Shown here one piece after another: positions 6,185 to 10,371 of a stretch of 64,000 nt of DNA. Numbering within the stretch: position 1 is the first letter of the stretch; every line of letters starts with the position of its first letter. The position numbers were made by a program, and so were the translations under genes. This stretch comes from Gammaproteobacteria bacterium (GTDB lineage Bacteria > Pseudomonadota > Gammaproteobacteria > Thiohalomonadales > Thiohalomonadaceae): contig QKED01000029.1 of assembly GCA_003252455.1 (NCBI GenBank), forward strand, positions 1 to 64,000, given 5' to 3'. A model generated the notes under the pieces. It was not told the DNA's origin, did not search any database, and was given only the letters and a program-made list of their open reading frames with translations.

Positions 6185-6490
6185 ATGGTTGCAATGACAA
6201 AGGGGACTGTCGAAGAGCAGATCCTCTCCTATATCCGCCGACAAGGCGGCATGACCCTCGCTACCACGCGTAGCGCCTACCGCGAGCTGGAGTACCGCGA
6301 CGGGCGCTGGTGGCTCATCACCGGCGACTCCCGCTCCGGCCGCGAACGCCAACAGCCCTGGAGCCCGGAACAGGCCCTCGGCGCCATCACCCTGCGCGCC
6401 CGCGAGGTGCTGCACGCCTTCGAGCAGGACCAACAGATGCCCATGCAGGAGGTGTTGAGCTGGGTCGAGGCGGTCTACGGCGAGGGTTGA
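6185..6490 (+). CDS. Small conserved-type protein of unknown function
   Basis: A 101-residue, probably cytoplasmic protein beginning MVAMTKGTVEEQILSYIRR. The frame opens earlier (6107), but the start at 6185 has the strong site AGGAGGA 8 bases upstream. The sequence has helical charged segments and a central RDGRWWLIT stretch, with no signal peptide, membrane segment or known motif. Coding status is supported by the ribosome-binding site. Function not recognised. It stands alone, 87 bp before the CRISPR-like repeats. Confidence 0.6.
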   Translation: MVAMTKGTVEEQILSYIRRQGGMTLATTRSAYRELEYRDGRWWLITGDSRSGRERQQPWSPEQALGAITLRAREVLHAFEQDQQMPMQEVLSWVEAVYGEG

Positions 6491-6576
6491 GCGTTTCCCG
6501 CACAAACCGATGCCCCTCGATGGGAGCCGCAAAGCCCCCCTGCCACCCCATGGAGTGCACACCTCGGCGTGCGCGC

Positions 6577-6686
6577 GCTTAATGAGGCCGCGGCGGGGGG
6601 CCGCGGATAACCCGGCTGACGTGCTCCTTGGCGCGGGTGATCGCCACATAGCTTCAATGAGGCCGCGGCGGGGAGCCGCGGATAAC
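6577..6686. CRISPR. Two-repeat CRISPR remnant with one 39-nt spacer
   Basis: Two near-identical direct repeats, 6577-6611 (35 nt) and 6651-6686 (36 nt), differ only by one missing C and one G/A change. Each contains a 7-bp stem CCGCGGC/GCCGCGG around a 5-nt loop and ends in GGATAAC, and the second begins GCTTCAATGAGG; that is the shape of a palindromic CRISPR repeat. The 39-nt interval (6612-6650) is unique and, on the minus strand, reads through 13 codons as YVAITRAKEHVSR. No cas gene lies in the window. A dispersed palindromic repeat pair is the alternative. Confidence 0.6.
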
Positions 6687-6699
6687 GGGGGGCTCGACG

Positions 6700-6763
6700 G
6701 TAGGAGCGGGCCATGCCCGCGATGGGGTGGGCCCGAGCATCGCGCCCATGGGGACGCTCCTAC
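6700..6763. repeat. REPIN-like inverted pair of REP sequences
   Basis: GTAGGAGCG opens at 6700 and its reverse complement CGCTCCTAC closes at 6763. Each arm (6700-6723 and 6739-6763) is itself a small palindromic REP unit of the GTAGGAGCG...CGCGAT type known from Pseudomonas and relatives. The two face each other across 15 bases, which is the REPIN arrangement. Such elements are moved by RAYT transposases; none is visible here. Confidence 0.65.
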
Positions 6764-6855
6764 GATGAGCATAAGGTGGGAGTGGCTGGTACCGAAGCGC
6801 TGCCTCGGCACTCTGTCCGCCGCTTTCCGTGCGTGGGCCTAGAGTCAGATGCGGG

Positions 6856-7422
6856 CTACTTCTGCCCCTCACCCACAATAACGCTCGGGTCCATCTCACC
6901 CATGTTGGGCAGTTGGTGGGCAATGCCTTTGTGGCAGTCGATGCAGGTCTTGCCGGCGGCGAGGCCCTCTTCGTGCTGGGTGCGGCCACGGCGCCCCTGC
7001 TTGGTGTAGTCCATCGAGCCGAAGTCGTGGCAGTTGCGGCACTCGCGCGAGTCGGTGCGCTTCATCGTGCGCCAGACGTTCTGCGCCAGCTCCAGGCGGT
7101 GGGCCTCGAACTTCTCCCGTGTGTCGATGGTACCCATCATCTTGTGCCACAGCTCGTTGCTCGCCTGGATCTTGCGCACCATCTTGTGCGTCCACTCCCT
7201 GGGCACGTGGCAGTCGGGACAGGTGGCGCGCACCCCGGTGCGGTTGGCGTAGTGGATGGTGGTGCGGTACTCGGCGTAGACGTTCTCCTTCATCTCGTGG
7301 CAGGTGATGCAGAACGCCTCGTTGTTGGTCATCTCCATGGCGGCGTTGAAGCCGCCCCAGAAGAGGATGCCCGCGATAAAGCCGATGAACAGCAGGGCGA
7401 TGACGGATCGCTTGATGGCCAT
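6856..7422 (-). CDS. napC: Periplasmic nitrate reductase tetraheme c-type cytochrome NapC
   Basis: A 188-residue NapC/NirT-family quinol dehydrogenase, anchored by one N-terminal helix (about residues 5-25), which passes electrons from quinol to NapB/NapA. Four CXXCH heme sites are visible: CITCH, CPDCH, CRNCH and CIDCH. The start at 7422 (MAIKRSVIALL) is chosen because AAGGGG lies 8 bases upstream; an ATG at 7428 is too close to that site. It is the last gene of napFDAGHBC, following napB after a 17-bp gap. Confidence 0.95.
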   Translation of the reverse strand: MAIKRSVIALLFIGFIAGILFWGGFNAAMEMTNNEAFCITCHEMKENVYAEYRTTIHYANRTGVRATCPDCHVPREWTHKMVRKIQASNELWHKMMGTIDTREKFEAHRLELAQNVWRTMKRTDSRECRNCHDFGSMDYTKQGRRGRTQHEEGLAAGKTCIDCHKGIAHQLPNMGEMDPSVIVGEGQK

Positions 7423-9669: not shown

Positions 9670-9816
9670 TTCACCACAGAGAACACAGAGAGCACAGAGG
9701 TATATCTGTGGGGTGTGCTTGCTGCTTCCGCTTGGGGTTCGCCCAGAGATTGAGTTCGAGCGGTTCACCAGACCTGTTCAAATACGCTCTGTGTTCTCTG
9801 TGTTCTCTGTGGTGAA
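9670..9816. repeat. ACAGAG-type palindromic element, copy 1
   Basis: 147 bp bounded by a perfect 14-bp inverted repeat, TTCACCACAGAGAA (9670-9683) and TTCTCTGTGGTGAA (9803-9816). The arms continue as 9-mers of the ACAGAGAGC type. There is no open frame of its own, as in a MITE-like or dispersed palindromic repeat. Confidence 0.75.
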
Positions 9817-9929
9817 CAGCACCCCATCCCCAACTCCGCTCTCGCCGAAACGTCGCAATGAACTGCCGCCTGTCGGTCAACTGCTGCTCCTTCAATCATT
9901 TGCCAGGCCTGGGCTCGGCTTTGAATATG

Positions 9930-10112
9930 TTCACCACAGAGAGCACAGAGAGCACAGAGAGCACAGAGAGCACAGAGAGCACAGAGGTGTATCTGTGGGG
10001 TGTGCTTGCTGCTTCCGCTTGGGGTTCGCCCAGAGATTGAGTTCGAGCGGTTCACCAGACCTGTTCAAATACGCTCTGTGTTCTCTGTGTTCTCTGTGTT
10101 CTCTGTGGTGAA
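9930..10112. repeat. ACAGAG-type palindromic element, copy 2 (expanded)
   Basis: 183 bp with the same ends and core as copy 1. The left arm carries three extra 9-mers and the right arm one extra, which accounts for the whole length difference and points to slippage within the arms. Confidence 0.75.
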
Positions 10113-10225
10113 CAGCAACCCATCCCCAACTCCGCTCTCGCCGAAACGTCGCAATGAACTGCCGCCTGTCGGTCAACTGCTGCTCCTTCAATCATTTGCC
10201 AGGCCTGGGCTCGGCTTTGAATATG

Positions 10226-10371
10226 TTCACCACAGAGAACACAGAGAGCACAGAGGTGTATCTGTGGGGTGTGCTTGCTGCTTCCGCTTGGGGTTCGCCC
10301 AGAGATTGAGTTCGAGCGGTTCACCAGACCCGCTCAACAATCTCTGTGTTCACTGTGCTCTCTGTGGTGAA
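10226..10371. repeat. ACAGAG-type palindromic element, copy 3
   Basis: 146 bp with the left arm of copy 1. The right arm has diverged (GTTCACTGTGCTCTCTG in place of regular 9-mers), suggesting this is the oldest or least homogenised copy. It lies nearest napA. Confidence 0.72.

Follow-up and report, generated by a model that had tools for sequence, protein, structure and literature searches.

A lone CRISPR unit of type I-G kind, probably the stump of a lost array, in a gammaproteobacterial genome

Introduction

Type I-G, formerly designated I-U, is a rare kind of CRISPR system. Its Csb2 protein cleaves the 36-nt repeat 4 nt beyond the hairpin, thus generating an 8-nt handle, and the PAM reported for the system is TTN (PMC9638904). 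In CreTA modules, for their part, the repeats are strongly degenerate, the first one most so, and a co-resident Cascade is required (PMC9458426).

Here we describe a unit of two repeats and a single spacer from a gammaproteobacterial genome of 4.58 Mb (99.7% complete, 118 contigs). The unit occupies positions 6577-6686 of the window, i.e., the whole stretch of 64,000 nt that was analysed and to which all coordinates refer, and it is read on the minus strand. Its repeat is of type I-G kind, and the unit itself is probably what remains of a larger array.

Anatomy of the Unit and Family of Its Repeat

On the minus strand, an intact leader-side repeat of 36 nt (6651-6686; GTTATCCGCGGCTCCCCGCCGCGGCCTCATTGAAGC) is followed by a 39-nt spacer (6612-6650; TATGTGGCGATCACCCGCGCCAAGGAGCACGTCAGCCGG) and by a terminal, leader-distal repeat of 35 nt (6577-6611), which bears out the two repeats around a 39-nt interval described in the first-pass annotation. 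In the leader-side copy, a 7-bp stem (CCGCGGC/GCCGCGG) is followed by CCTC and by the 8-nt handle ATTGAAGC, a layout identical to that published for I-G Csb2 (PMC9638904). The terminal copy preserves the hairpin portion with a single loop change, and its damage is found chiefly in the final 8 nt, where the handle has lost one G (ATTAAGC). Allowing three mismatches at most, the window contains exactly two occurrences of the 28-nt core common to both repeats vs. none in 100 shuffled sequences. Furthermore, a genome-wide search of the 4.58 Mb returned this unit and this repeat as sole copies, and the unit is therefore not a dispersed repeat.

The Rfam family CRISPR-DR16 (RF01330) recognizes the leader-side repeat with 35.3 bits, barely over the gathering score of 35, and the terminal repeat with 25.1 bits, under that score. 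A relaxed pattern of the repeat retrieved 50 stretches from a public genome set, almost all of them in Proteobacteria and many corresponding to long arrays. In five of these loci (L013, L031, L032, L044, and L049) the proteins adjacent to the array match PADLOC models for Cas3g, Cas8g, Cas7g, Cas5-6g or Cas4-Cas1g. Since close relatives of the repeat thus form arrays beside cas3g, cas8g, cas7g, cas5-6g, and cas4-cas1g in other Proteobacteria, the repeat of the window is assigned to the type I-G kind. The length of the spacer fits this assignment, as spacers in the related arrays are mostly of 35-39 nt, with a mode of 36-37 nt and 76 measured spacers of exactly 39 nt. The unit, in sum, has the 36-nt repeat with the I-G hairpin and the ATTGAAGC handle, together with a spacer within the range of about 35-39 nt; it lacks a leader ahead of the first repeat, and no I-G cas genes were found in the genome. 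The latter result means that no working I-G system can be claimed; the assignment as a remnant array stands. The earlier reading as a CRISPR remnant is in this way sharpened to a particular subtype.

Polarity, Flanks, and Neighborhood

In I-G arrays the first repeat is perfect and the last one is frequently damaged in its final bases (e.g., L015, L032, L041, and L043). The polarity of the window unit is the same, an intact first repeat and a damaged last one. Units with one spacer in which the first repeat is intact and the second altered were also found in locus L011 and in Thiococcus pfennigii (L056), so that one-spacer stumps are not unique to this genome. Lone I-G-type repeats with no second good copy in their own stretch were observed as well (L014, L022, and L037), and these might be solitary repeat units.

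At the expected position of a leader, on the upstream side of the first repeat, the sequence runs straight into a linker and a REP-like palindrome (6687-6764, no strand assigned) that abuts the repeat and belongs to an element dispersed in the genome with 56 matches. Many I-G arrays have a GGGCT-like leader end just upstream of their first repeat, according to a comparison of array starts. The region 6400-6900 contains no promoter-like site, and the left flank of the unit is unique in the genome.

REP-like palindromes (GTAGGAGCGGGCCATGCCCGCGAT...) occur at 6700-6764 and in L073-L077, several of them as tandem rows with a period of 73-80 nt. Beside the nap cluster, at 9675-10255, a 296-bp unit is present twice (95% matches) with tandem runs of the 9-bp CACAGAGAG/CTCTGTGTT, and between 1174 and 5740 a TrkA-like ORF lies between two TrkH-like potassium transporter ORFs that, judged by eye, are similar to each other.

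Source of the Spacer

Read on the minus strand from its first base, the spacer is open as YVAITRAKEHVSR, which corresponds to motif VI of SF1 helicases, just as had been proposed at first reading. In the collection searched, 29 of 32 bases match, in frame, the traI gene of many Serratia marcescens plasmids, the nearest plasmid match; one of these plasmids, which was examined, is typed as conjugative and MOBF. The base-reversed spacer, searched as a control in the same collection, gave only matches with E=6.

The initial suggestion that the spacer derives from a plasmid or phage helicase or relaxase is therefore supported in kind and unproven in detail: the last 7 bases of the spacer do not align to traI, a match over its full length was not obtained, and upstream of the Serratia match stands the triplet GCC instead of TTN. 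Weaker matches (query 6613-6651) were obtained in helicases from phages and from other plasmids. A phage source was discarded, the best phage matches having E values of 0.2 or worse, and a pattern of the helicase motif had no match in IMG/VR. Self-targeting through a strong match to the coding motif was likewise discarded, as a degenerate pattern of the motif matches the spacer alone in its own genome. A pattern for TraI with the motif found no other match in 369 genomes of the class, from which it follows that this pattern was probably too strict.

Motif VI is conserved across many SF1 helicases, and for this reason the spacer could derive from some other mobile helicase. From the in-frame similarity, we consider that the spacer was probably taken from a TraI-like conjugative relaxase-helicase or from a related mobile SF1 helicase.

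An Orphan Unit in Its Genome

That no cas genes lie nearby had been noted at the outset, and correctly: the sole cas1 detected in the genome is of type I-E and sits on another contig (C93), together with cas3, cse1, cse2, and a cas7 of the CT1975 family. This type I-E system (G000:C93; L006:1-11231) includes, next to these genes, an array of 33 repeats with a 61-nt period and of a different kind, 29 nt long with the core CGGTTCATCCCCGCGGATGCGGGGAACAC. The possibility that this resident system serves the window unit was rejected on account of the unrelated repeat.

The genome-wide search for the repeat and for cas genes yielded no other repeat copy and only the I-E set. Csb1 was found neither in the host genome, by a search that does detect this protein in a different genome of the class, nor in 19 genomes of the same family. 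The Csb2 search of the host genome gave no match either, a weak negative given that no control genome gave a match. No member of the RAMP family was found, on which ground use of the unit by a type III system was rejected, and no second cas1 was detected. In the absence of I-G Csb1 or Csb2, of a type III RAMP protein, of a second cas1, and of any further repeat copy in these searches, we regard the array as an orphan. Given the 118 contigs of the assembly, a missing I-G plasmid is possible.

Moreover, the repeat was found neither in the 19 further genomes examined from the order nor in 55 relatives, which also means that the interval is not a sequence conserved among them. Its absence from the rest of the order makes it likely that the I-G system, or the array, arrived horizontally.

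Origin and Possible Roles of the Unit

Taken together, these data argue well for the unit being a stump from the leader-distal end of a type I-G array that has lost its cas genes, its leader, and its other units. The lineage, or the donor of this DNA, would formerly have carried a I-G system that acquired a spacer from the helicase portion of a TraI-like conjugative relaxase or from a related mobile SF1 helicase. With the subsequent loss of cas genes, leader, and every other unit, only the oldest one would have stayed in place, with napC on one side and a small ORF on the other, and it is now bordered by the REP element. This loss is not directly seen, because no relative is known with a longer array or a cas operon at the locus. 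Transcription of the unit and cleavage by Csb2 would yield a crRNA of about 75 nt, formed by the 8-nt handle, the 39-nt guide, and a 28-nt hairpin tail. As no protein able to process or use such a crRNA was detected in the genome, the unit is probably silent at present, yet its preserved hairpins could alternatively indicate that it is younger or still in use.

Indeed, since all the parts of one crRNA survive, use in trans is possible: a working mini-array would supply its single crRNA against conjugative plasmids whenever a I-G system, for instance on a plasmid, is present. The intact handle, spacer, and 3′ hairpin are consistent with such a role, as are the confinement of the damage to that segment of the last repeat which cleavage would remove and the existence of other one-spacer I-G units (L011 and L056). 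Against it speak the genome with no I-G protein detected by the Csb1 and Csb2 searches (the latter uncontrolled), the missing leader and promoter-like site, and a repeat seen in 0/19 of the other genomes of the order, all of which make this function unlikely.

A horizontal history of another kind would be that the two-repeat unit came ready-made, by transfer or recombination from a bearer of I-G, into a lineage that never had the cas genes. The distribution of the repeat and the lack of Csb1 in the 19 genomes of the family that were searched agree with this, and the unit does join a dispersed REP element; on the other hand, its edges bear no sign of a mobile element and its left flank is unique, so that we hold this course of events to be improbable. 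Rather doubtful, too, is the broader idea that I-G units with a single spacer and a changed terminal repeat (the window, L011, and L056) recur in unrelated Proteobacteria and are kept as stand-alone guides, anti-plasmid or regulatory, that use I-G proteins in trans.

Very little speaks for a regulatory guide similar to CreTA or CreR, in which a crRNA-like RNA from ectopic repeats steers Cascade to a cellular promoter. A single guide between two repeats outside any array, the second repeat being changed, recalls such elements, but in these the repeats have degenerated and the genome encodes a cognate Cascade. The window unit has an intact first repeat, its genome yielded no matching Cascade (neither I-G Csb1 nor, in an uncontrolled search, Csb2), and its spacer is similar to a foreign gene. 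A stand-alone role, either in trans or CreTA-like, is no more than a possibility. Finally, a REP-type intergenic palindrome that occurs twice by chance, as the adjoining REP element might suggest, is refuted to a near certainty by a repeat that differs from the REP sequence, is found nowhere else in the genome, and matches CRISPR-DR16 and real arrays, some of them beside I-G cas proteins.

The stump of a lost I-G array therefore remains our preferred reading. The unit would constitute a record of the past contact of this lineage with a I-G system and probably also with a conjugative element, in an order whose other examined genomes carry no such repeat, and it illustrates an array shrunk to a stump that holds one complete crRNA unit. 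Alone, the find changes little.

Comparison With Known Systems

With type I-G arrays such as that of Thioalkalivibrio sulfidiphilus (L032), the window unit shares the 36-nt repeat, its stem, CCTC, and terminal ATTGAAGC included, as well as the spacer length and the polarity with a damaged last repeat. It differs from them in its single spacer, in the absence of leader and cas genes, and in its loop (TCCCC/CCCCC), which is unlike the loops seen in I-G arrays.

CreTA and other ectopic CRISPR repeats also enclose one guide between two repeats outside an array; the window unit, by contrast, shows no degeneration of its first repeat, its genome yielded no Cascade to match, and the spacer is similar to a foreign gene. 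Viral solitary repeat units (Racr) and virus-borne mini-arrays are, like this one, minimal repeat units with no cas genes. The window unit has two repeats and a spacer, is chromosomal, and lies beside nap genes and not in a phage; the repeat pattern had no match in IMG/VR.

The unit resembles orphan or isolated CRISPR arrays, which have no cognate cas genes and reside in a genome with another CRISPR type. It is smaller than most of them, its repeat can be assigned to a subtype, and its spacer has a plausible source. It is, in this sense, an ordinary and well-preserved relic of a known kind.
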